Below, piece after piece: positions 17,589-29,343 of a stretch of 64,000 nucleotides of DNA. The stretch's first letter is position 1, and the number at the start of each line of letters is the position of its first letter. Source of the DNA: Salibacterium qingdaonense (lineage in GTDB: Bacteria > Bacillota > Bacilli > Bacillales > Marinococcaceae); assembly GCF_900114715.1 (NCBI RefSeq), contig NZ_FOTY01000010.1, forward strand, positions 1 through 64,000, in the 5' to 3' direction. Under the pieces are notes generated by a model. The model did no database searches, was not told where the DNA came from, and saw only the letters and a program-made list of their open reading frames with translations. Made by a program: the position numbers and the translations under genes.

Positions 17589-17945
17589 CTCTAAATCCGG
17601 ACGCAGGGTGACTGCGTCATTTAAGTAAACGTGATTGACTTCTTGCTGCATGGCTTCGGTCTCTGCCGTCATCATCACCCGTATACAAAGCGGCAGACTT
17701 TCCGGAACCGGTATTTCCTGTGCACACATCACCGGTACAAACTGCCACCCATCAATTAATCTAGTCGCTTTTGCCGGAAATGCTGCATCAAGGTCCTCTG
17801 TTACCGTAAACCATATGTGGGACACACTTTCAGGGAACATATGATTTTCCTTGATCATTTTTTCCAAAAGTCGTTTCGTGCTGCTTACAATCTGCTCCTC
17901 GGTATTCTTCTTCACCGTCGTCGCTCCGCGTACTCCTCTAATCAT
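17562..17945 (-). CDS. aroH: Chorismate mutase, AroH type
   Basis: Converts chorismate to prephenate. The 127-aa protein is the small trimeric AroH fold; the N-terminal MIRGVRGATTV with its active-site Arg, the following charged helix and the central RVMM segment match the family. ATG 17945 overlaps the aroB stop by 8 bases and has AAAGGGGG upstream. It feeds tyrA and hisC further down the same block. Confidence 0.93.
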   Translation of the reverse strand: MIRGVRGATTVKKNTEEQIVSSTKRLLEKMIKENHMFPESVSHIWFTVTEDLDAAFPAKATRLIDGWQFVPVMCAQEIPVPESLPLCIRVMMTAETEAMQQEVNHVYLNDAVTLRPDLELTKRKENR

Positions 17946-19035
17946 CCCGGCATTCCCCCTTTTTCATTTCTGACAACAGATGAAGGATGTCGCGTTCCTC
18001 CACATTTGCAAGAAATGGTTTCCCAGGGGAGGCAGCCAGTACAAACGTCAATTCGCCGGCTCGTGCTTTTTTATCACTTTTCATCGTTTCAACGAGTGCA
18101 GCCGGTTCAAAAGCAGCCGGTGCTTCCACCGGATACCCGAGTGCTTTAAACCACGCGGTTTCCGCGGCAGTATCCCACTCTGAATACTGAAGATAATTGC
18201 TTACTTTCATCGCAAAAATCATTCCTGCTGCAACAGCTTCCCCGTGGGTTAAGTCTTTATAACCCGATGCTTTTTCCAGTGCGTGGCCGAGCGTGTGGCC
18301 GAAATTAAGAAATGCGCGCACCCCTGCTTCGCGTTCATCTTCTTTGACTATATCAGCTTTCACAGTCATGGATTGTTTCAGAAACTGTTTCAGGGAGTCT
18401 TTTTTCATATCCTCCGTGTTTTGAACTTCCGTTCTGAGGCGGACCAGAAGATCCGGGTCTTTAATAACGGCATGCTTAATCATCTCGGCAAATCCGGAAC
18501 GCCATTCCTTGTCGGGAAGAGAAGCAAGGGTGTCTGTGTCATACAGCACGGCTTCCGGCTGATGAAACGCCCCAATGAGATTTTTTCCTAGAGGGTGATT
18601 AATGCCTGTCTTTCCTCCTACACTGCTGTCCTGGGCAAGCAGGGTTGTGGGCATCTGTACAAAGGATATTCCTCTCATATATGTAGCAGCAGCAAACCCT
18701 GCAAGATCACCAACCATTCCGCCGCCAAGTGCCAAAATGACAGAATGCCGGTCGAGACGGGCATTGATACAGGCTGTCATCACCTGATCGTACCCTTCCA
18801 GCGATTTAGAGTGTTCTCCTGCCTGCAGCGTGTGAATATGAACCGAAAGCAGCGGTTCCAGTGAATCACGCACCGTTTCTGCATAAAGTGGTGCTGTGTT
18901 GGAATCACTGATAATCAGCGCCCGGCTCTTTCCTTCCAGTACAGAGGCCAAAAGCTCTGCACTCCGGTGCAGCAGACCTTCTCCTATATATACCGGGTAC
19001 TCCCTGCTTGACGTATCAATAATCAACTGCTCCAC
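17938..19035 (-). CDS. aroB: 3-Dehydroquinate synthase
   Basis: Second step of the shikimate pathway. The 365-aa NAD- and metal-dependent enzyme shows the GGGMVGDLAGFAA and PTTLLAQDSSVGGK motifs and the zinc-ligand histidine in FGHTLGHALE. The start is GTG 19035, sharing one base with the aroC stop codon and preceded by GAGGGA; this matches the usual N-terminus better than the longer frame to 19053. Confidence 0.95.
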   Translation of the reverse strand: MEQLIIDTSSREYPVYIGEGLLHRSAELLASVLEGKSRALIISDSNTAPLYAETVRDSLEPLLSVHIHTLQAGEHSKSLEGYDQVMTACINARLDRHSVILALGGGMVGDLAGFAAATYMRGISFVQMPTTLLAQDSSVGGKTGINHPLGKNLIGAFHQPEAVLYDTDTLASLPDKEWRSGFAEMIKHAVIKDPDLLVRLRTEVQNTEDMKKDSLKQFLKQSMTVKADIVKEDEREAGVRAFLNFGHTLGHALEKASGYKDLTHGEAVAAGMIFAMKVSNYLQYSEWDTAAETAWFKALGYPVEAPAAFEPAALVETMKSDKKARAGELTFVLAASPGKPFLANVEERDILHLLSEMKKGECRDD

Positions 19036-20207
19036 TAAAAATCCCTCGCCCATTCTTTGTGCTGTTCTACCGCCTGCTTCACAGCGTCCACTCTGTCAGA
19101 ACCGAACATATCCAGTACCGCAGCAGCCACTTCAAATGAAATCACATTTTCCATCACAACCGAAGCTGCCGGTACAGCACAGCTGTCCGACCGTTCGATG
19201 CTTGCGTTGAAAGGCTCCTTCGTCTCAATATCAACGCTCTGAAGAGGTTTATACAGTGTCGGAATAGGTTTCATGACTCCCTGGATGATTACGGGCATCC
19301 CATTGGTCATTCCACCTTCAAATCCACCCAGGTTATTTGTTTTTCGGTAATAACCGGTTGCAGCATCCCAGGCTATCTCGTCATGCACCCTGCTTCCCGG
19401 CATCCCTGCTGCATCAAAACCGATGCCGACCTCGACGCCTTTAAACGCGTTAATGCTGACGACAGCGCCCGCTATTTTGGAATCGAGCTTCCTGTCATAT
19501 TGAACGTGACTCCCCATCCCTACCGGCACTCCACTGATTACAGTCTGCACGACTCCACCAATGGAATCACCGTTTGCTTTCGCGTCATCAATCGCTTGTT
19601 TCATTTTTTCCGCGGCATCCTCGTCAAGACAGCGCACCGGGGAGGCTTCCGACCGTTCCTTGAGATCCAGCATGTTTTCGTATTCTACTTTTTCCGCCTC
19701 GATTCCCCCGATTTCAAGAACCTGTCCTCCAACATCCATACCCAGCGTGTGCAGAACTTTTTTGGCAAGAGCTCCTGCACACACCCGGGATGTCGTCTCC
19801 CGGGCCGAGGAACGTTCGAGCACATTACGGAGGTCACGGTGTCCATATTTAACAGCGCCGTTTAAGTCAGCATGCCCGGGTCTTGGACGGCTGATCCGGC
19901 GTTTTACGTTCTGCTCTTCCTCTTCAGATAAAGGAGCCGTTCCCATAATTCCGGTCCAGGACTGGTAGTCTTTATTTTCCACTACCATCGTAATGGGGGC
20001 TCCAGTCGTACGGCCGTGACGGACGCCGCTCATAAACTGTACCTTATCTTTTTCAATCTGCATGCGCCGGCCGCGTCCGTAACCACCCTGGCGGCGCCGG
20101 AGCTCTTTGTTGATATCTTCTTCCACAAGCTCCATACCCGCCGGCACGCCTTCCACAATCGTAGTTAACTGGGGACCATGCGATTCTCCAGCTGTTAAGT
20201 ATCTCAT
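19035..20207 (-). CDS. aroC: Chorismate synthase
   Basis: Forms chorismate from EPSP with reduced FMN. The 390-aa protein begins [14 protein letters not shown] and carries the [12 protein letters not shown] and RPGHADLNG motifs. ATG 20207 has AAGGAG upstream; the open frame to 20258 is not needed. The B. subtilis locus name is aroF. It opens the aroC-aroB-aroH part of the aromatic block; its promoter was not clearly identified, though a TATCAT-like -10 is seen around 20260-20270. Confidence 0.96.
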
Positions 20208-20316
20208 GTTCGTATTCCACTCCTTTTTCCGTATTCTCTCTTTCGTGCTTTTATGCATTAAATGATAACATATTTACAGACGCTTGTGTCGGGAAATACA
20301 CATACGTTTCATGCTT

Positions 20317-21141
20317 TTATATATCTTTTGTTTTTTTATAAAAAAATGTATCTTCTGTTTCAAATCCGAACTGTTCCGGGTTGAAAATCTGTTCTGTACT
20401 TCCGACAAAAAGGATACCGCCTGATTTCAGCGCTCTATTAAATTTCCTGTAAATCTCCCGTTTCGCTTCATCGGTGAAATATATCAGAACATTCCGGCAT
20501 ATAATAATATCAAAGCCGGTTTCATATGTATCAGCAAGCAGATTATGTTTTCGAAACGTTACGTTACGTTTAACATCGTCTGTGATGCGCGAGCCTGTCT
20601 CCTCCTTTGTAAAATACCGGTTAATCACCGGGGTGGAAAGTTCTTTCAGCGCCCTTTCCGTGTACAGTCCAGCTTCCGCCCGTTTTAATATAACATCATC
20701 AATATCGGTAGCTGTAATACTGTAATCCTTTACCGAGTTGTTTTCTTTCAGGATTATCGACATCGTATACGGCTCTTCTCCTGTTGAACAGGCAGCCGAC
20801 CATATTTTCAGACGGGAAGACTGTTTCAGAAGACGAGGCAGAATAACTTCGGTCAACACGTCCCAACGTTTTGAATTACGGTAAAATTCAGATACGTTTA
20901 TCGTCATGCGCTCCAGAAACTTTTCAAGAACAGATTCATCTTTACTGATACCTCTATTAAAAAAGTCATGGAAGTTTTGATATCCGCGTTTCTCATAAAA
21001 CGAGGTCAGACGCCGTTTCATCTGCGCTTCTTTATAGAGCGACAAATCAATGCCAGTCTTTGTTTTTACGTCCCTCTTAAATCTCTCGTAATCGGACTCC
21101 GTTCCGGTACGGAGTCCAGATTTTTCTTCTTTTTCACTCAT
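20317..21141 (-). CDS. cheR: Chemotaxis receptor methyltransferase CheR
   Basis: Methylates glutamates of methyl-accepting chemotaxis proteins using SAM. The 274-aa protein has the N-terminal helical CheR domain (to about residue 85) and the SAM-binding domain with WSAACSTGEEPY and CRNVLIYF. ATG 21141 is preceded by AAAGAGGG. The place between ndk and aroC is the same as in B. subtilis, where it is also isolated from other chemotaxis genes. Confidence 0.95.
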   Translation of the reverse strand: MSEKEEKSGLRTGTESDYERFKRDVKTKTGIDLSLYKEAQMKRRLTSFYEKRGYQNFHDFFNRGISKDESVLEKFLERMTINVSEFYRNSKRWDVLTEVILPRLLKQSSRLKIWSAACSTGEEPYTMSIILKENNSVKDYSITATDIDDVILKRAEAGLYTERALKELSTPVINRYFTKEETGSRITDDVKRNVTFRKHNLLADTYETGFDIIICRNVLIYFTDEAKREIYRKFNRALKSGGILFVGSTEQIFNPEQFGFETEDTFFYKKTKDI

Positions 21142-21250
21142 GTGGGTGCCCTCTTTCACTTTCTAAATCATGCTGTTATTGTATCATGACATTCAGTAGG
21201 TGAATAGTCCGCAGATAAAGAGCCTTTCTCTGGTTTTCCATACAAAAAAG

Positions 21251-21327
21251 AGCAACGAAAAATGCCGAACGATTTTAAAAAATCGTTCGGCATTTTTCTG
21301 AATGATAAAGGTTTTGTCCCGGACTCT
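21251..21327 (-). repeat. Repeat family, short copy C (left end only), ndk terminator
   Basis: Read on the minus strand, 77 bp match the left end of copy A: the terminal AGAGTC(C/T)GGGACAAAACC, a short variable stretch, then the GCCGAACGATT hairpin (21258-21297) with T-tract. It starts 10 bp after the ndk stop codon. The rest of the long element is absent. Confidence 0.8.
21258..21297 (-). terminator. Terminator of ndk (hairpin of repeat copy C)
   Basis: Nearly identical to the hairpin at 1083-1122: a stem of about 17 bp flanked by A- and T-tracts, following the ndk stop by 40 bp. Confidence 0.8.
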
Positions 21328-21337
21328 CCGTAAACTT

Positions 21338-21781
21338 TTATACCCAATCTGCTACATGCTTTTCATAGGATTGTATCTCACTTTTGTCAAAAAACAGGTC
21401 AATTTCACGTGCTGCACTTTCCGGGGAATCGGAACCATGAATGACGTTCATCCCGACCTGTACGGCGTAATCGCCGCGGATTGTACCGGGAGCAGCTTCG
21501 GCCGGATTGGTTGCCCCCATCATTTTGCGGGCTTCGGCGATGACGTTCTCCCCTTCCCAGACCATCGCAAACACAGGACCGGATGTAATAAACGATATCA
21601 GGCTGTCAAAAAACGGCTTGTCCTTTAATTCGTCATAATGTTTTTCCGCCATTTCTCCCGGGATGGACATTAACTTTGCTGCTGCCAGGGTGTAGCCCTT
21701 GTTTTCAAAGCGCTGCACGATGTCCCCGACAAGATTCCGCTGTACGCCGTCCGGTTTCACCATAATAAACGACTGTTCCAT
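21338..21781 (-). CDS. ndk: Nucleoside diphosphate kinase
   Basis: Transfers the gamma-phosphate of ATP to nucleoside diphosphates through a phosphohistidine. The 147-aa protein has the [11 protein letters not shown] start and the catalytic His in [11 protein letters not shown] 21781 has AAAGAGGG 6 bp upstream; ATG 21787 abuts that site. It is the last gene of the hep cluster, as in B. subtilis. Confidence 0.97.
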
Positions 21782-21872
21782 CTTCATCCCTCTTTCTTAT
21801 GTAATCGTTTTCTGAACCCGTCTGATTATATCAAACACTGAAAGCGTTAGCAACTTCCATTACATAAGGTCT

Positions 21873-22844
21873 TCAGCTGTTTCGGCTTCCAATATAGGAA
21901 GCAATATCCAGAAGAGATTTTTTGGCTGAAATATCCTCCAGACCGTCCAGGGAACGAAATGCTTTCTGCAAATACTGTCTGCTCAAGGTTTTGGAGTATT
22001 CAATGCCGCCGGATTGGTTGATCATATCCAGAAGTGGAGATATGTCCCCGGGATCATCCCCTGATCTCCCGATAATGCGGTTGATTTCTTCCCGGCAGAA
22101 CGAGTCATGATGCATCGCATATAAAGCCGGAAGAGTGACATTTCCCTGCCGCAGGTCGCCTCCGGCCGGTTTACCCAGTTCCTTTTCCGTCCCTGTGAAA
22201 TCGAGGATATCATCAATAATCTGATAGGACATACCAACGTTATATCCATAGTAGTAGAGACGGTTTTGATCTTCACGTGACGCTCCCGCACTGATGGCCC
22301 CCAGCTGACAGCTTACTGCTATCAAAAGCGCGGTTTTACGCTTGATGCGGCGCAGATAGGTTTTGAAGTTCTGATCCCAGTTATACTGATCACGTATCTG
22401 CTCTATTTCACCCAGACACATTTCCATCATCGCATTGGAAATCACCCGGTGAATCGTTTCATTTTCAAAAAACGAGGCCTTTTCAATCGCTTTCGCAAAA
22501 ATGTAATCCCCTGTGTACATTGCAACCCGGTTGTCCCACCTCGCCTTGATCGTTTTGCTGCCCCGGCGGAGATCCGCATCATCAATGACATCGTCATGAA
22601 CGAGAGATGCCATGTGGATCAACTCAAGAGCTGCAGCAATATGTTTAACACGGTCTATTTCATACTGTCCAAATTTTGCACTAAGCAGCACAAATACCGG
22701 CCGGATCCGCTTTCCCCCTGAATGAAGGAGGTGCAAAGACGCTTCCTGAAGTACCGGATGATCAGCTTCCACCGCACGTTCAAGTTCTGATTCTATTTTT
22801 TTTATATCCGGCTTGAGAAACATGTACAGATCGGCCAACTTCAT
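21873..22844 (-). CDS. hepT: Heptaprenyl diphosphate synthase, catalytic subunit HepT
   Basis: Catalytic component of the heterodimeric prenyl synthase that makes the menaquinone-7 side chain. The 323-aa protein has both Asp-rich motifs, DDVIDD near residue 84 and DDILD near 210, plus GGKRIRP. ATG 22844 is preceded by AAGGTGA; the frame to 22892 overlaps mqnA and is not needed. HepS, the partner, is encoded about 3 kb upstream with four quinone genes between. Confidence 0.95.
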   Translation of the reverse strand: MKLADLYMFLKPDIKKIESELERAVEADHPVLQEASLHLLHSGGKRIRPVFVLLSAKFGQYEIDRVKHIAAALELIHMASLVHDDVIDDADLRRGSKTIKARWDNRVAMYTGDYIFAKAIEKASFFENETIHRVISNAMMEMCLGEIEQIRDQYNWDQNFKTYLRRIKRKTALLIAVSCQLGAISAGASREDQNRLYYYGYNVGMSYQIIDDILDFTGTEKELGKPAGGDLRQGNVTLPALYAMHHDSFCREEINRIIGRSGDDPGDISPLLDMINQSGGIEYSKTLSRQYLQKAFRSLDGLEDISAKKSLLDIASYIGSRNS

Positions 22845-22855
22845 GATATTCACCT

Positions 22856-23719
22856 TCAAAATAAGTATTGCACCTCGTTTCCGGCTGCCCATAACGGAAT
22901 ATGGTTTACGGGGGTCTTCAAAAAACCGTATTTGTACAGAAGTTCAAAATAATAAAGCAATCCTTCTTTTTCTTTGTCCCGAAAATCATAATGCAGTCCG
23001 CGGAAATAGTCATCCCAGAATGAAAGGGTTCCGCCATGCTCCTTTTGCACATCCTGCACCATCTGTTCAAAGCAGCTGTGAAGTGAAAGAGCCTTGCTGT
23101 AGTGAAAGGCTTTGAACAGAGTTTTTATTATGCTCTGGTCCTTTTGAGCAGCTGCGTTGCGCACAGCAAACACCGCATACGTCATGGGGAGTCCGGTGTG
23201 TTGGTACCACAACTCGCCCAGATCATAGCAAAAGAAGGATCGGTCCGGACTCCAGGATTCACGAATCGCATCGTCCCCTATTAATAAAAAGGCGTCATGC
23301 TCCATTTTCATTGTTTTCGGATCAGGATGCATCGTCTCATAATTAATGTGTGTTAAATTATAAAATTCTGCGAGGATAATTTTCAGCAGGTGGACTGAAG
23401 TTGCGCTCGAAGAGGTGAGAGCAATCGAACTGCCTTCAAGCTTATCAATCTCTTTTTTGGAAAAAAAGAGAATGGATCCTACTTTTCCGTATGAGGAAAC
23501 AGATAAGTCCGGAAACAGTTCCAGTTCTTCAGCATTTTCCCCGTAGGCGAAGGAGGAAATACCTGCTGCATCAATCGAGCCCTCTTTTATACCTGCATTC
23601 AGCTCGGCAGGCACCTTCGGGTAAAATAAGCATCCCTGGGTTTCCAGTTCCCTTTTATCAAGAAAATGAAAAGCAGGAATAATGTTTGTATAAGAAATTT
23701 CACCGATTCTAATGCTCAC
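22856..23719 (-). CDS. mqnA: MqnA-family chorismate dehydratase (futalosine pathway)
   Basis: By family, converts chorismate to 3-enolpyruvyl-benzoate, the first step of the futalosine route to menaquinone. The 287-aa protein has the typical start RIGEISYTNIIPAF, the SSFAYGEN and LTSSSATSVHLLK motifs and the DLGELWYQHTGLPM(T)YAVF block shared with periplasmic-binding-like MqnA and MqnD. The start is uncertain: GTG 23719 overlaps the ubiX stop as GTGA, while the frame extends to 23734. B. subtilis uses the menF/D/B route and has no such gene here. The other mqn genes are outside the window. Confidence 0.85.
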   Translation of the reverse strand: MSIRIGEISYTNIIPAFHFLDKRELETQGCLFYPKVPAELNAGIKEGSIDAAGISSFAYGENAEELELFPDLSVSSYGKVGSILFFSKKEIDKLEGSSIALTSSSATSVHLLKIILAEFYNLTHINYETMHPDPKTMKMEHDAFLLIGDDAIRESWSPDRSFFCYDLGELWYQHTGLPMTYAVFAVRNAAAQKDQSIIKTLFKAFHYSKALSLHSCFEQMVQDVQKEHGGTLSFWDDYFRGLHYDFRDKEKEGLLYYFELLYKYGFLKTPVNHIPLWAAGNEVQYLF

Positions 23720-24318
23720 TTTTTCTGCCCCCATCTCGTAAATAAAGCGTGCCCCACACCAAGACTGTCCAGAATTTTGCCGGCTACAAAATTAATCAAG
23801 TCGTCCTTTGTCTCAGGAAGGTGATAAAAACCCGGCATTGCCGGTACAATCAGAGCCCCGTTTTTCTCTGCTTTGGACAGATTTTCAAGATGAATACCGT
23901 GCAGCGGGGTTTCTCTTGGCACAAGAAGGAGCGGTCGTTTTTCCTTGAGCTGTACATCCGCCGCCCTCTCAATTAAATTCCCTGAAATGCCGTTTGCAAT
24001 CTTGGATAATGTTCCCATAGAGCATGGAGAGACAATCATTCCATCGGTATGATGAGAACCACTTGCGATTGGGGCTTTGAAGTCCTGGAGTTCATGCATC
24101 ACCCATTGTTCGCTGTTGTATCCGGCAAACAGCTTCCGCACACACTCCTCTCTATCTGTCGTATCAAGGAGTAGTTCTTCCCGGAAAACCTGCCATCCTG
24201 CCTCGCTGACCAAAAAATGAACATAATGCCCCTGTCTCAGCAGTTCTTCTGTGATACGGATGCCGTATACTGCTCCACTGGCACCAGTAATAGCTACAGT
24301 AAATGTTTTTACAGTCAT
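23716..24318 (-). CDS. ubiX: UbiX-family flavin prenyltransferase
   Basis: Makes prenylated FMN, the cofactor of UbiD-type decarboxylases. The 200-aa flavoprotein starts with VAITGASGAVYGIR and has the SPCSMGTLSKIANGI and LVPRETPLH motifs. Next to mqnA and a UbiA prenyltransferase it probably serves the decarboxylase acting on the naphthoate intermediate of the futalosine pathway; that role is inferred from context. ATG 24318 overlaps the preceding stop as ATGA. Confidence 0.9.
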   Translation of the reverse strand: MTVKTFTVAITGASGAVYGIRITEELLRQGHYVHFLVSEAGWQVFREELLLDTTDREECVRKLFAGYNSEQWVMHELQDFKAPIASGSHHTDGMIVSPCSMGTLSKIANGISGNLIERAADVQLKEKRPLLLVPRETPLHGIHLENLSKAEKNGALIVPAMPGFYHLPETKDDLINFVAGKILDSLGVGHALFTRWGQKK

Positions 24319-25175
24319 AACAGCATGTCCCCAATTGTGAAAAACAGCATGACAAAGCTGATGACCCCGTTCATCGGGAAGAAAGCCACCCCTACCCTGG
24401 ACAGATCATTGGGTTTCACGATGGAGTGTTCATAGGTCATCACAACACCGGCAATCAGAACGCCCGCCAGATACACCCAGGACAGCGGCGAAAGAAAATG
24501 CAGAGACAATAACGCTAGAAAACTGATGCAGTGAAAAAGTCTCGCCGCCATCAAAGCTTTTGGAACGCCGAACCGGGAAGGAATGGAATGAATGCCTTCT
24601 TCATCGTCATGCTCTTTATCCTGTGTGGCGTAAATGACATCAAAGCCCGCAATCCAGAATGCTACAGCAAGAAAAAGCAGTAATGCTTCCGGACGAAGAG
24701 TTCCGGTTGCACCAACCCATCCTCCGAGCGGTGCAATGGCTATCGTTACACCAAGAAAGATGTGACAGAGCCAGGTAAACCGCTTTGTATAAGAATAAAA
24801 TGTCAAAAAAAACACCGCCGCCGGAAGAAGATAAACCGACAACATGTTAAGTTGAAAAGCTGCTGTCACTAAAACAAGTAGTGATACAGCGATAAACAAT
24901 ATACTTTGATTCATGGAAATCAACCCGGCCGGAATCGCACGTCCGGCTGTCCGCGGGTTTCGTTTGTCAATGCGGGCATCAATAACACGGTTCATCGTCA
25001 TGGCAGCACTTCTCGCCCCTACCATGGCAAGAGTTATCCATACCCATTCCCCAATGGCGGGCCATGTCCCTTCCACCATTAAACTTCCAAGTACCGCCCC
25101 GAGAAAAGCAAACGGAAGGGCGAATACGGTATGCTCAAATTTGATCATTTCAAGTATGATTTTTACTTTTTTCAT
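24315..25175 (-). CDS. mqnP: UbiA-family polyprenyltransferase (MqnP-like)
   Basis: A 286-aa integral membrane prenyltransferase with about eight or nine helices. The first Asp-rich motif is in NRVIDARIDKRNPRTAGR and the second in DVIYATQDKEHD. In this setting it most likely attaches the heptaprenyl chain to dihydroxynaphthoate of the futalosine pathway, rather than acting on 4-hydroxybenzoate as automatic annotation would suggest. ATG 25175 has AAAGGAAG upstream. It lies between menG and ubiX. Confidence 0.87.
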   Translation of the reverse strand: MKKVKIILEMIKFEHTVFALPFAFLGAVLGSLMVEGTWPAIGEWVWITLAMVGARSAAMTMNRVIDARIDKRNPRTAGRAIPAGLISMNQSILFIAVSLLVLVTAAFQLNMLSVYLLPAAVFFLTFYSYTKRFTWLCHIFLGVTIAIAPLGGWVGATGTLRPEALLLFLAVAFWIAGFDVIYATQDKEHDDEEGIHSIPSRFGVPKALMAARLFHCISFLALLSLHFLSPLSWVYLAGVLIAGVVMTYEHSIVKPNDLSRVGVAFFPMNGVISFVMLFFTIGDMLL

Positions 25176-25198
25176 TTATGTACTTCCTTTCCAGTACT

Positions 25199-25906
25199 TC
25201 AGCTGCTCTTCAAAGCGGAATGGGAAGCAGCTGTTCCCATCGCAAACGACGTCACATCCACTTCACAAAATCCGGCTTCTGCGAACATAATCGTGAGGAG
25301 GTTCTTGTTAGGAAAGGCGGCGGTTGACTCTTGAAGCCAGGAATACTCCTCATAATTTCCTGCAAACAGTTTTCCTAAGCCGGGCATCATATAGCTGAAA
25401 TATACGGAATACATCCGCTTGAAACAGTTGTTTTCCGGTGTCGACGTCTCAAGACAGACCGCCCGTCCTCCTTTTTTAAGGACTCTGTGCATTTCGCGCA
25501 GCACCGTTGGATAATCCGCAGCGTTGCGCAGCCCAAAACCAATCGTAACATAATCGAATGATTCGTCGGGAAAAGGCAGATCCATCACATTCGCCTGAAG
25601 CAGTTCAACCTGGGAAAGTCCTTTTTGCTGTACCTTTTCCTGTCCGGTTTGAAGCATACTGCCACTAAAATCAACGCCTGTCACACTGCCGGCACTGCCC
25701 GTGGCTTCTGCAAGATCAATCGTCCATTCCGCGGTACCACAGCAAAGATCAAGTACTACGGCTCCTTGTTCCACATTCAGCGCCTCCATCGTTTTCTTTC
25801 TCCATGATTTATGAAGACGAAAGCTGATTACCGAGTTCATCAGATCGTATTTGTGGTGTATGTTTTCGAATACTTCATGTACTCGTTCTTCTTTTGTTCT
25901 ATTCAT
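25199..25906 (-). CDS. menG: Demethylmenaquinone methyltransferase
   Basis: Final step of menaquinone synthesis, C-methylation with SAM. The 235-aa class I methyltransferase has the YDLMNSVISFRLHKSWR motif, the SAM loop LDLCCGTAEWT and GFGLRNAADY of the UbiE/MenG family. It lies 17 bp after hepS. This step is common to both menaquinone routes. Confidence 0.95.
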   Translation of the reverse strand: MNRTKEERVHEVFENIHHKYDLMNSVISFRLHKSWRKKTMEALNVEQGAVVLDLCCGTAEWTIDLAEATGSAGSVTGVDFSGSMLQTGQEKVQQKGLSQVELLQANVMDLPFPDESFDYVTIGFGLRNAADYPTVLREMHRVLKKGGRAVCLETSTPENNCFKRMYSVYFSYMMPGLGKLFAGNYEEYSWLQESTAAFPNKNLLTIMFAEAGFCEVDVTSFAMGTAASHSALKSS

Positions 25907-25922: not shown

Positions 25923-26729
25923 TTACTTAATCTCTGCTTTTATAAAATCGCGGGACCATGATGTCAGCACATTAAAGAGCAGCTCGTTTCCAATGGAAGT
26001 TGTTGTATGTAATTTTTGATGCAGTTCTTTTTGCAGCCTCGTGATATGATGGGTCAGCCACTGTTCTACACTTTGTGCCGGCCAGGAACCTGTCCATTCT
26101 ATTCCGCCTTCCAAAAACGCATGGATAGAATTCGCCGGGGCAGAAAGATAACAGCTTTCTTTTGGGTTCCGTTCATGAACAAGACGCTTTAACAGAAAAA
26201 AAGTCTCCGCAAGCGATCCGGCCTCAGGCTTCTGATAAAACGAAGCAATATTCTTTAAAAAAGCACCTTCCACTAATGCAAGCCGGGAGAGGAGCACCTC
26301 TTCGCTTTCATTTTCGCAGAAATGAAGGCTCATTTTTTCTTCGTTGATTTTTTGAATAGCATCACTGAATACAGGTATCACCTTGGCATGGACATCTCTA
26401 TCGAGCATGCTGTGGTAAAGGCTGCTGAAAAAATCACCGGCCAGAACGGTCAGCTGCCGGGGCTTTTTACCGAGAAGTACTTCCTGACCTCCGGTTTCCA
26501 CCTTTTCATGGGTAACAAAGGCTGCCTGGACCAAAAGAGCCGATAATATCTGTTCTCTTTTTGCATCTGCAGAAAGAGGGGAATCCAAGAGCAGCTCCAT
26601 CATGAACAAAATATAATCATATTCGATACCGGCCTCTTCGATATATTCTTTTAAATATGGATGACTTGTCAGCTGCTTAAACTCGTGTTCAATTTTCTGC
26701 ACCTCTGCATCTTCATACAGCTCTTTCAT
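25923..26729 (-). CDS. hepS: Heptaprenyl diphosphate synthase, component I HepS
   Basis: A 268-aa helical non-catalytic partner of HepT that controls product chain length. The family is poorly conserved; assignment rests on length, the central HEKV..GGQEVLLGKKPRQLTVLAGDFFSSLYH block resembling a degenerate prenyl-synthase fold, and position between mtrB and menG as in B. subtilis. Confidence 0.88.
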   Translation of the reverse strand: MKELYEDAEVQKIEHEFKQLTSHPYLKEYIEEAGIEYDYILFMMELLLDSPLSADAKREQILSALLVQAAFVTHEKVETGGQEVLLGKKPRQLTVLAGDFFSSLYHSMLDRDVHAKVIPVFSDAIQKINEEKMSLHFCENESEEVLLSRLALVEGAFLKNIASFYQKPEAGSLAETFFLLKRLVHERNPKESCYLSAPANSIHAFLEGGIEWTGSWPAQSVEQWLTHHITRLQKELHQKLHTTTSIGNELLFNVLTSWSRDFIKAEIK

Positions 26730-27002: not shown

Positions 27003-27572
27003 TTATGAACGGTTAATAAGTGTCAATACTTCCGCCCTTGATGCTTCATCGTTTTCAAACGATCCCCGGACCGCTGATGTTACCGTTTCGGTTCCTGGTT
27101 TCTGGATACCGCGCATCGTCATACACATGTGCTCGGCTTCCACCACGACAATCACACCATGAGGATTAAGTGTTTCAAGAATGCTGTCAGCCACCGTGGA
27201 TGTGATTCTTTCCTGAAGCTGCGGTCTTTTCGCCACTGTTTCCACTGTTCTTGCCAGTTTACTTAACCCGGTAACCTGTCCTTCTTTTGGTATGTAACCG
27301 ACGTGGGCTTTTCCGTAGAAAGGAACAAGATGATGCTCACACATCGAGTAGAACGGAATATCTCTTACAAGAACGAGTTCCTCATGTTCTTCTCCGAAAA
27401 CGGTTTGAAGGTGTTCAGCCGGATCCTGCGACAATCCCTGAAAAACTTCCTCATACATTCTTGCTACCCTTTTGGGCGTGTCCAGAAGACCATCCCGGTC
27501 TGGATTTTCCCCGACAGCTTCCAAAATGGAGTAAACTGCTTTCTCTATTTTATCGTGATTAACGGTAGACAC
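27003..27572 (-). CDS. folE: GTP cyclohydrolase I
   Basis: First step of folate synthesis, GTP to dihydroneopterin triphosphate. The 189-aa protein has the zinc site CEHHLVPF and the second ligand Cys in [11 protein letters not shown], with the LSKLARTVE motif. It starts at GTG 27572 with AGGGGG upstream. It is also called mtrA and heads the folE-mtrB-hep cluster. Confidence 0.96.
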
Positions 27573-27861: not shown

Positions 27862-29343
27862 CTACAGTATGATCGCTATCAATCCTCCGGAGCCCTCATT
27901 GATAATACGTTCCAATGTTTCTTTCAGTTTGTATCGAGCATTTTCCGGCATCAAAGACAATTTTGCCTGTATTCCTTCGCGGACTATAGAGTTAAGGGAA
28001 CGCCCGAAAATGTCCGAATTCCAGATGGACAATGGATTCTCTTCAAAGTCCTGCATGAGATACCGGACGAGTTCTTCACTTTGTTTTTCCGTCCCGATAA
28101 TCGGAGCAAATTCAGATTCGACATCCACCTTAATCATATGAATGGACGGCGCCACCGCTTTCAGTCTTACTCCAAAACGCGATCCCTGTTTAATAATTTC
28201 CGGTTCATCGAGGCTCATGTCTGTTAAGGCAGGAGCTGCAATGCCGTACCCTGTCTGCTTCACCATTTTCAATGCTTCACTGACTTGATCATACTCTTGT
28301 TTGGCGTGAGAAAAATCCTGCATCAAATGGAGCAGATGGTCTTTTCCTCTGATTTCCACCCCGACGACTTCTTTTAATATCTGGTCGTATAGGTGCTCCG
28401 GCGCGTACAGATCTATTTCAGCAACACCGCGTCCCATTTCAATGCCCGCCAGACCGGCTTCTTCTATGAATTCAAAGTTTCCTGCAAACTGCTGGACCAC
28501 TCGGTCTACATCCCGAAGCCGTTTAATGTCTTTCACCGTGTTGCGTACGGATTGTTCATATTCCTCACGAAGCCAGTGATTGTCCCGCAGCACCATGACC
28601 CAGCTCGGCAGGTTTACATTCACTTCATGAACTGGAAACTCAAAAAGTACTTCCCTTAAAACGTTGTGAATATCGTGCTCTGTCATACTTTCTATGCTGA
28701 GAGCCAGTACCGGAACATCATGTTCTTCCATCAATTGCTGACGAAGTGCCTCTGTTTCCGGATGGTGCGGCTGAACAGAGTTAATCACCATAATATAAGG
28801 TTTTCCTACTTCATTGAGTTCTTCCATAACCCTGTCTTCAGCTTCCACATAATCATCACGGGCAATGTCTCCAATTGTTCCATCCGTTGTAATCACTACT
28901 CCAAGTGTCGAATGTTCCTGAATAACTTTCCGCGTACCGATTTCAGCTGCTTCCTGAAATGGAATGGGATCTTCGTACCACGGGGTATTAATCATACGAG
29001 GGCCATTTTCATCCTCATATCCTTTTGCCCCTTCCACCGTATACCCGACACAATCGACGAGCCGTACATTCACTTCCAGGCCTTCTTCCACTTCGAGCGA
29101 AACAGCATTATTGGGCACAAATTTGGGTTCTGTCGTCATAATTGTGCGTCCTGCTGCGCTTTGCGGCAGTTCATCCGTTGCCCTTGTTTTATCGACTTCA
29201 CTTCCCATGTTGGGAAGCACAACCAGCTCCATGAATTTTTTAATAAACGTGGATTTACCGGTACGGACGGCGCCGACAACTCCTAAATATATATCTCCTC
29301 CGGTCCGTTCTGCGATATCCTTGAAGATATCCACTTTTTCCAC
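27862..29343 (-). CDS. spoIVA: Stage IV sporulation protein A, spore coat ATPase
   Basis: Self-assembling ATPase that forms the basement layer of the spore coat on the forespore surface. The 493-aa protein has the Walker A GAVRTGKST near residue 24, a TRAFAC-like GTPase fold, a middle region and the conserved C-terminal segment ending GLIAIIL. It begins at GTG 29343 with AGGAGGGG upstream. CATA-type sequences about 30-60 bp upstream could be part of a sigma-E promoter but I cannot fix the hexamers. Confidence 0.97.
   Translation of the reverse strand: MEKVDIFKDIAERTGGDIYLGVVGAVRTGKSTFIKKFMELVVLPNMGSEVDKTRATDELPQSAAGRTIMTTEPKFVPNNAVSLEVEEGLEVNVRLVDCVGYTVEGAKGYEDENGPRMINTPWYEDPIPFQEAAEIGTRKVIQEHSTLGVVITTDGTIGDIARDDYVEAEDRVMEELNEVGKPYIMVINSVQPHHPETEALRQQLMEEHDVPVLALSIESMTEHDIHNVLREVLFEFPVHEVNVNLPSWVMVLRDNHWLREEYEQSVRNTVKDIKRLRDVDRVVQQFAGNFEFIEEAGLAGIEMGRGVAEIDLYAPEHLYDQILKEVVGVEIRGKDHLLHLMQDFSHAKQEYDQVSEALKMVKQTGYGIAAPALTDMSLDEPEIIKQGSRFGVRLKAVAPSIHMIKVDVESEFAPIIGTEKQSEELVRYLMQDFEENPLSIWNSDIFGRSLNSIVREGIQAKLSLMPENARYKLKETLERIINEGSGGLIAIIL

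Follow-up and report, generated by a model that had tools for sequence, protein, structure and literature searches.

The first 64,000 nucleotides (nt) of contig NZ_FOTY01000010.1 of Salibacterium qingdaonense, a salt-loving relative of Bacillus, here called the window, carry on the minus strand the two genes of heptaprenyl diphosphate synthase, hepS and hepT, together with menG. In B. subtilis, hepS, menG, and hepT are contiguous. In the window, a chorismate dehydratase gene (mqnA), a flavin prenyltransferase gene (ubiX), and a gene for a UbiA-type prenyltransferase lie between menG and hepT, and open frames for all three were found where an earlier note on this DNA, made from its letters, had placed them. 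The six genes are as follows.

25923..26729, minus strand: hepS, heptaprenyl diphosphate synthase subunit 1 (PF07307, 155 bits, cut-off 30)
25199..25906, minus strand: menG, demethylmenaquinone methyltransferase (NF001243, 349 bits, cut-off 235)
24315..25175, minus strand: mqnP-like gene for a UbiA-family prenyltransferase (NF041586 as best NCBIfam match; TIGR01475; PF01040)
23716..24318, minus strand: ubiX (mqnM), flavin prenyltransferase (TIGR00421, 197 bits, cut-off 108.9)
22856..23734, minus strand: mqnA, chorismate dehydratase (PF02621, 212 bits, cut-off 26)
21873..22844, minus strand: hepT, heptaprenyl diphosphate synthase subunit 2 (TIGR02748, 507 bits, cut-off 456.55)

On a second model, TIGR02752, menG scored 340 bits, under the cut-off of 420. 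The hepT frame is open from 22892, and reading of the start region gave the ATG at 22844 as the likely start. Of the four junctions between menG and hepT, two have the overlapping start and stop codons described in the earlier note (mqnP and ubiX overlap by 4 nt, ubiX and mqnA by 19 nt), while the other two have gaps, of 23 nt between menG and mqnP and of 11 nt between mqnA and the likely hepT start. Terminator-like stems on the minus strand between hepS and hepT had only 5-6 pairs, and the 13 promoter-like sites were not in excess over chance (9.4 in shuffled sequences, standard deviation 3.2). These counts are compatible with a single transcript from hepS to hepT, and the six genes are predicted to form a probable operon.

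The block very probably encodes the first and late steps of the futalosine pathway, the less familiar route to menaquinone (vitamin K2), and shares a probable operon of six genes with the synthase for the side chain. The genes are present, and their reactions would follow from what is known of the families. MqnA would convert chorismate to 3-enolpyruvylbenzoate, which MqnE, a candidate deaminase, MqnB, MqnC, and MqnD, all encoded at other loci, would turn into 1,4-dihydroxy-6-naphthoate. HepS and HepT would supply heptaprenyl diphosphate, and MqnP would attach the heptaprenyl chain. A UbiD-type decarboxylase from another locus would then remove the carboxylate with prenyl-FMN from UbiX, and MenG would methylate last. 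The earlier proposal of one unit for head group, prenylation, and side chain therefore holds for the side chain and for the first and late steps of the pathway, and not for mqnB and mqnD, mqnC, mqnE, ubiD, and the deaminase candidate, which are on other contigs.

We found the other genes that the earlier note had named for a check, mqnB to mqnE and a UbiD homologue, all elsewhere in the genome. Two genes match PF02621, at 238 and 212 bits. One is in the window and was called MqnA on account of its solved relatives, which are chorismate dehydratases; the other adjoins mqnB (TIGR03664, 213 bits, over the cut-off of 124.7) on contig 18, and was called MqnD because of that neighbor. The mqnC gene is on contig 41 (TIGR03699, 483 bits, over the cut-off of 428), two tandem genes on contig 48 exceed the cut-off of the MqnE model TIGR03700, and the single UbiD homologue is on contig 37 (L012:5627-7444). 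Among the genes of the o-succinylbenzoate (men) route the search was for MenD and not for menF, C, E, B, or H, and no MenD over the cut-off was found in the genome. The absence of men genes expected in the earlier note was thus borne out for MenD. Together, mqnB with mqnD, mqnC, mqnE, and UbiD, and no MenD over the cut-off, support the futalosine route that the earlier note had read from the window.

The futalosine (Mqn) pathway is known from Streptomyces and others (PMC3914697). The S. qingdaonense genome has the same mqnA, B, C, D, and E genes and the same UbiA-, UbiD-, and UbiX-type late enzymes. It differs in gene placement, since the genes occupy five contigs and mqnA, mqnP, and ubiX belong to the side-chain cluster, and in having two mqnE-type genes in tandem. 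The genes mqnABCD have also been reported in members of Alkalihalobacillus except Clade VI and one further species (PMC8543038), as in the genome studied here.

We then searched the same 150 genomes of the order with six families. PF02621 was detected in 29 genomes, of which 28 were kept as futalosine genomes, each with a best match of at least 204 bits. The genome that was dropped (G016) has a match of 38 bits over about half the profile, above the Pfam cut-off of 26, and has MenD. MenD over the cut-off was found in 122 of the 150 genomes, which are the complement of the 28 futalosine genomes. The two menaquinone routes have been described as largely mutually exclusive (PMC13386864, crediting Zhi et al. 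2014; PMC3914697). MqnE over the cut-off was found in 27 genomes, all of them futalosine genomes; the 28th (G132) has only a gene in two pieces, most like MqnC. On the UbiD model TIGR03701, the 28 futalosine genomes scored 342-466 bits and the 122 men genomes at most 232 bits, so that a UbiD of at least 340 bits occurs in 28 of 28 and 0 of 122 genomes, respectively; the cut-off of the model itself was reached in none of the 150. The mqnA gene adjoins hepT in 27 of the 28 futalosine genomes, the exception being G145.

That a men pathway is also present in S. qingdaonense, unseen by us, with the mqn genes as spares, is scarcely probable at all. Three weak MenD matches count for it, as does the search of MenD as the sole men gene, which also weighs against our reading. 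The three matches, however, reach 50-77 bits where the cut-off is 244, and none of the 28 genomes with full MqnA and MqnD matches has MenD over the cut-off.

The products of the three genes between menG and hepT were compared with solved proteins and family models. The window MqnA matched the solved chorismate dehydratase SCO4506 with an E value of 6e-30. It keeps an Asn and a Ser (chain positions 18 and 87 as printed) that are substituted in deposited SCO4506 variants, in two of five aligned chains. That the depositors changed these residues suggests that they may have a catalytic role. Among named sequences, the MqnA of Salibacterium halotolerans is the closest, with 83% identity. UbiX matched solved UbiX relatives with an E value of 9e-51. 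The UbiA-type protein has the MqnP model NF041586 as its best NCBIfam model (351 bits) and exceeds the cut-off of TIGR01475 (314 bits, cut-off 180.8). Among the hep loci examined, mqnP occurs beside mqn genes and not in men-type hep clusters; the search for UbiA covered these loci and not whole men genomes.

The suggestion of the earlier note that the UbiA and UbiX proteins be annotated as menaquinone rather than ubiquinone enzymes is supported by these family matches, by the shared position of the genes, and by a UbiD of the same kind that is confined to the 28 futalosine genomes; the two would thus be MqnP and MqnM. MqnP, MqnL, and MqnM were proposed by Ravcheev and Thiele in 2016 (PMC4746308), and the reassignment is therefore sound and not new. 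The same UbiA-, UbiD-, and UbiX-type homologues co-occur with mqn genes in that proposal and here, with the difference from the MqnL step proposed there that the UbiD of S. qingdaonense is 605 aa long, falls under the TIGR03701 cut-off, and is encoded outside the cluster. It has a C-terminal extension of about 157 residues past the end of the TIGR03701 match.

Several scores weigh against these assignments. The window MqnA had no match in the NCBIfam scan. The UbiA-type protein missed the NF041586 cut-off of 430, that of an "exception"-type model, and is called MqnP-like for this reason. The UbiD homologue missed the TIGR03701 cut-off (350 bits against 495.9).

We determined how constant the block is among relatives. 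A scan of named genomes gave 77 loci; 75 of them belong to relatives of Bacillus, and the other two are distant outliers. The order menG-mqnP-ubiX-mqnA-hepT was found in 62 of the 77 loci, and 1 was cut by a contig end. Of the outliers, a metagenome-assembled genome (MAG) of Paenibacillaceae has ubiX-mqnA-hepT on a 4.2 kb contig, and a Thermodesulfovibrio MAG has mqnA alone. The block is not a chance arrangement, since mqnA adjoins hepT in 27 of 28 futalosine genomes and the full order recurs in these 62 loci. The remaining 12 loci have the same order without ubiX, which is a further point against our reading, as the block is not uniform. The 12 loci are L096, L111, L115, L117, L147, L150, L151, L155, L156, L158, L161, and L166, from Alkalicoccus species and an Alkalicoccus MAG, Shouchella xiaoxiensis, Alkalihalobacillus trypoxylicola, Halalkalibacter oceani, Alteribacillus persepolensis, and a Bacillus MAG; ubiX was searched for within the block and not in the rest of these genomes. 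An artefact of the open-reading-frame filter was considered and rejected, as the same 12 loci lacked ubiX without the filter. At locus L021, repeated sequence occupies the space of ubiX, and no ubiX was seen in three frames.

Across the class, 123 of 398 genomes had an MqnA match at 1e-15. Outside the order, we examined 39 loci with mqnA; they came from 21 families, each represented by one to five loci, and 33 of them were picked by mqnA and 6 by an mqnE-type gene. In 30 of the 39 loci mqnA adjoins hepT, and in the other 9 the order is mqnA-mqnC-hepT (families f60, f64, f67, f74, and f80). The menG gene is upstream in 37 of 39 loci (it was not found in two f73 loci), ubiX is present in 38, and mqnP in 32. 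With mqnP not found in 7 loci and ubiX not in 1, the block varies in content, which again counts against our reading. In some class loci, ubiD or an mqnE-type gene is added: ubiD is inside the hep cluster in at least one locus each of f54, f60, f66, f69, f70, and f74, and f60, f64, and f80 have a larger block with mqnE and mqnC.

These distributions bear on whether UbiA and UbiX instead serve a different quinone or the decarboxylation of an aromatic acid and stand beside mqnA by chance. UbiX proteins serve many UbiD partners. This, the 12 of 77 named clusters without ubiX, and the missed MqnP cut-off are in keeping with such a role. We nevertheless regard it as highly improbable, given that MqnP is the best model, that mqnP and ubiX lie beside mqnA and are flanked by menG and hepT in 62 of 77 named loci, that they recur in 32 and 38 of the 39 class loci, and that the same kind of UbiD is confined to the 28 futalosine genomes. 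The menaquinone reading of UbiA and UbiX beside hepT is thus supported across many Bacilli. The arrangement is confirmed as real, widely common to relatives, and mostly fitting known biology.

The genes around the six in the window are as follows.

27862..29343, minus strand: spoIVA, upstream flank common to relatives (TIGR02836, 859 bits, cut-off 460)
27003..27572, minus strand: folE, upstream flank (TIGR00063, 259 bits, cut-off 182)
21338..21787, minus strand: ndk, next downstream of hepT (NF001908, 220 bits)
21257..21298, minus strand: terminator-like stem of 19 pairs 3' of ndk (consensus match only)
20317..21159, minus strand: presumed cheR-like gene, named by us from its translation (no NCBIfam match at 1e-60; homologue at the same place in many relatives)
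19035..20258, minus strand: aroC, chorismate synthase (TIGR00033, 421 bits, cut-off 212)
17938..19053, minus strand: aroB, 3-dehydroquinate synthase (TIGR01357, 377 bits, cut-off 305)

The order on the minus strand is thus spoIVA-folE-hepS-menG-mqnP-ubiX-mqnA-hepT-ndk-cheR-like-aroC-aroB. For comparison, one men-type locus was taken from each of 39 families, which covered 39 of the order's 122 men genomes. The flanks are the same, spoIVA-folE-hepS-menG on one side and hepT-ndk-cheR on the other, whereas mqnP-ubiX-mqnA is missing between menG and hepT in 39 of 39 men-type loci. The distance from menG to hepT was -71 to 179 nt in 38 of them; in G017, where a stop splits the hepT frame into two pieces, it was 471 nt up to one of these. 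In the loci examined, one chromosomal site therefore reports the choice of route, with the block present in futalosine genomes and absent from men genomes. A search of titles, the starts of abstracts, and open-licence papers did not turn up this gene order in Bacilli, which is weak evidence of absence from the literature.

The earlier note had described the genes as inserted inside the hep cluster, which implies a late arrival in a B. subtilis-like cluster. The gene order across the class suggests that this direction is probably reversed and that the block is old. The block looks old because mqnA either adjoins hepT or is one gene, mqnC, away from it in 39 of 39 loci from 21 other families. 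We consider it probable that the contiguous hepS-menG-hepT cluster was derived by excision rather than that the block was inserted. The block would probably be an inherited feature of futalosine-using Bacilli, and the men-type cluster would most likely have arisen by loss of the block as the men pathway took over. A FastTree phylogeny of four neighboring proteins from 76 genomes gave three changes of route, with futalosine at the root.

Features of this tree weigh against an excision. All 15 outgroup taxa are futalosine genomes by our choice; the state at the root is therefore biased, and excision is what we infer. The men-type lineages sampled were those of the order and not of the rest of the class, and several nodes are weakly supported. 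In addition, the futalosine genome G034 falls inside the men clade, so that a reversal or repeated losses are needed.

The position of G034 would also fit the arrival of a futalosine cassette by transfer, once or several times, in a hepS-menG-hepT cluster like that of B. subtilis, as would the patchy distribution within the order (28 of 150 genomes) and the mixed family f1, in which G107 is men-type and G000, G035, G075, and G135 are futalosine genomes. Such a transfer is unlikely in our view. In 21 further families the block is found at the same place and varies in content, and f60, f64, and f80 have the larger block with mqnE and mqnC. The distances between MqnA proteins track those between SpoIVA proteins (r 0.64, n 21, none of 999 permutations as high), as do those of MqnP (r 0.66, 0 of 999 permutations) and UbiX (r 0.56, 1 of 999). 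MqnA distances also track those of MenG (r 0.71) and HepT (r 0.72), although a transfer of the whole hep cluster would align MenG and HepT as well.

G107 (locus L018) is from the family of the window but from another genus, and its menG adjoins hepT. It likely represents a switch of route within the family of the window; the exact place of G107 in that family is weakly supported. Switching between menaquinone routes has been reported for Actinomycetota and the former Deltaproteobacteria (PMC13386864). With the hep site as a readout, route switching becomes traceable in Bacilli too.

The survey also brought up gaps in the pathway that can be tested, namely genomes without a detected MqnA, the deaminase step, and a second MqnE. 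The exceptional genome G145, a single contig of 4.06 Mb from the same order, has hepS-menG-mqnP-hepT. The 101 nt between its mqnP and hepT (L014:8102-8204) contain no remnant of ubiX or mqnA by eye, and its sole PF02621 match is MqnD, next to mqnB. The genome has mqnB, mqnD, mqnE, mqnP, UbiD, and the deaminase candidate, along with an MqnC-like gene recognized solely from how it scored with the MqnE model. As a futalosine genome without mqnA, G145 weighs against our main reading. In the class, 27 of 150 genomes with MqnE- or MqnC-family matches had no MqnA match at 1e-15, in a survey that covered up to six candidates for each genome and did not extend to MqnB, MqnD, or MenD. Of these 27, 16 are from genus g112 of family f50 (e.g., L236, L237, and L238), in which 16 of 16 genomes with MqnE- or MqnC-family matches had no MqnA match; this evidence is weaker than that from G145. 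We put forward tentatively, as an unlikely proposal, that some Bacilli run the futalosine route without MqnA and obtain 3-enolpyruvylbenzoate through an unrelated first enzyme or from another source. G145 would also be explained by menaquinone auxotrophy, by an assembly fault, or by a plasmid that the assembly lacks.

For the deaminase step, a 5'-deoxyadenosine deaminase near mqnB and mqnD (L013:8157-9509, 689 bits) was considered and rejected, because its family is over the cut-off in only 8 of 28 futalosine genomes but in 15 of 122 men genomes (23 of 150 in total). A second gene, L074:3815-5125 on contig 54, is of the 5'-deoxyadenosine/MTA deaminase kind, and no family model names it at its cut-off. 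With at most 10 candidates scored per genome, its homologues at 284-386 bits, a floor set after the scores had been seen, were found in 28 of 28 futalosine genomes and 15 of 122 men genomes. In 22 of the 28 futalosine genomes the gene shares a contig with hepT and is 25-47 kb downstream of it. Among the 15 men genomes it was within 50 kb of hepT on the same contig in none; it was on another contig in 14 of them, so that closeness to hepT is possible there. In 12 of 14 futalosine loci and 0 of 6 men loci, the gene stands between dinG and ypmB/aspB or asnS, neighbors that we presume from their translations. L074:3815-5125 is a candidate aminofutalosine deaminase, an enzyme expected in pathways that use a futalosine hydrolase.

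The second MqnE-type gene, which encodes a radical SAM protein (L010:6531-7649, contig 48), lies directly upstream of mqnE. Its identity is 38-42% with first-type genes and 67-73% with the corresponding genes of two relatives, and the second type forms its own clade, scattered through the class. We rejected a recent duplication of mqnE on the basis of these identities and of the separate clade. A dead copy was not favored, as all 21 genes of the clade have CX3CX2C and the two MqnE clades have 27 conserved positions in common that MqnC does not share. Within the order, two genes exceed the MqnE cut-off in 3 of the 28 futalosine genomes. A profile of the second type scored at least 544 bits in 27 of 398 genomes of the class, with a related group of 12 at 418-465 bits and two genomes having both. 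The second type is in tandem with the first in 18 of the 27 genomes, including G232. In the other 9, the first type is elsewhere in 5, not among the matches listed in 2, and undecided from the matches listed in 2. The related form is inside the hep block in all six loci examined from f60, f64, and f80. The likeliest role, judged from these comparisons, would be that of a second aminofutalosine synthase, with no evident advantage. The three second-type genes of the order all differ from the first type at 83 positions that do not vary among 19 first-type genes, which argues against the same function, and the enzyme may have a changed substrate.

Another MqnE-like protein was found in the hep block of f67 and f74, encoded upstream of mqnA (L216:7425-8480, L217:7683-8783, and L226:7525-8157). 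These proteins are without CX3CX2C and score 59-83 bits to MqnE. In Pfam, they match only the CofH/MqnC C-terminal region, over the cut-off for L226 and under it for L217, with no match for L216. They are possibly pseudoenzymes, and the genomes concerned have full-length MqnE-type genes elsewhere.

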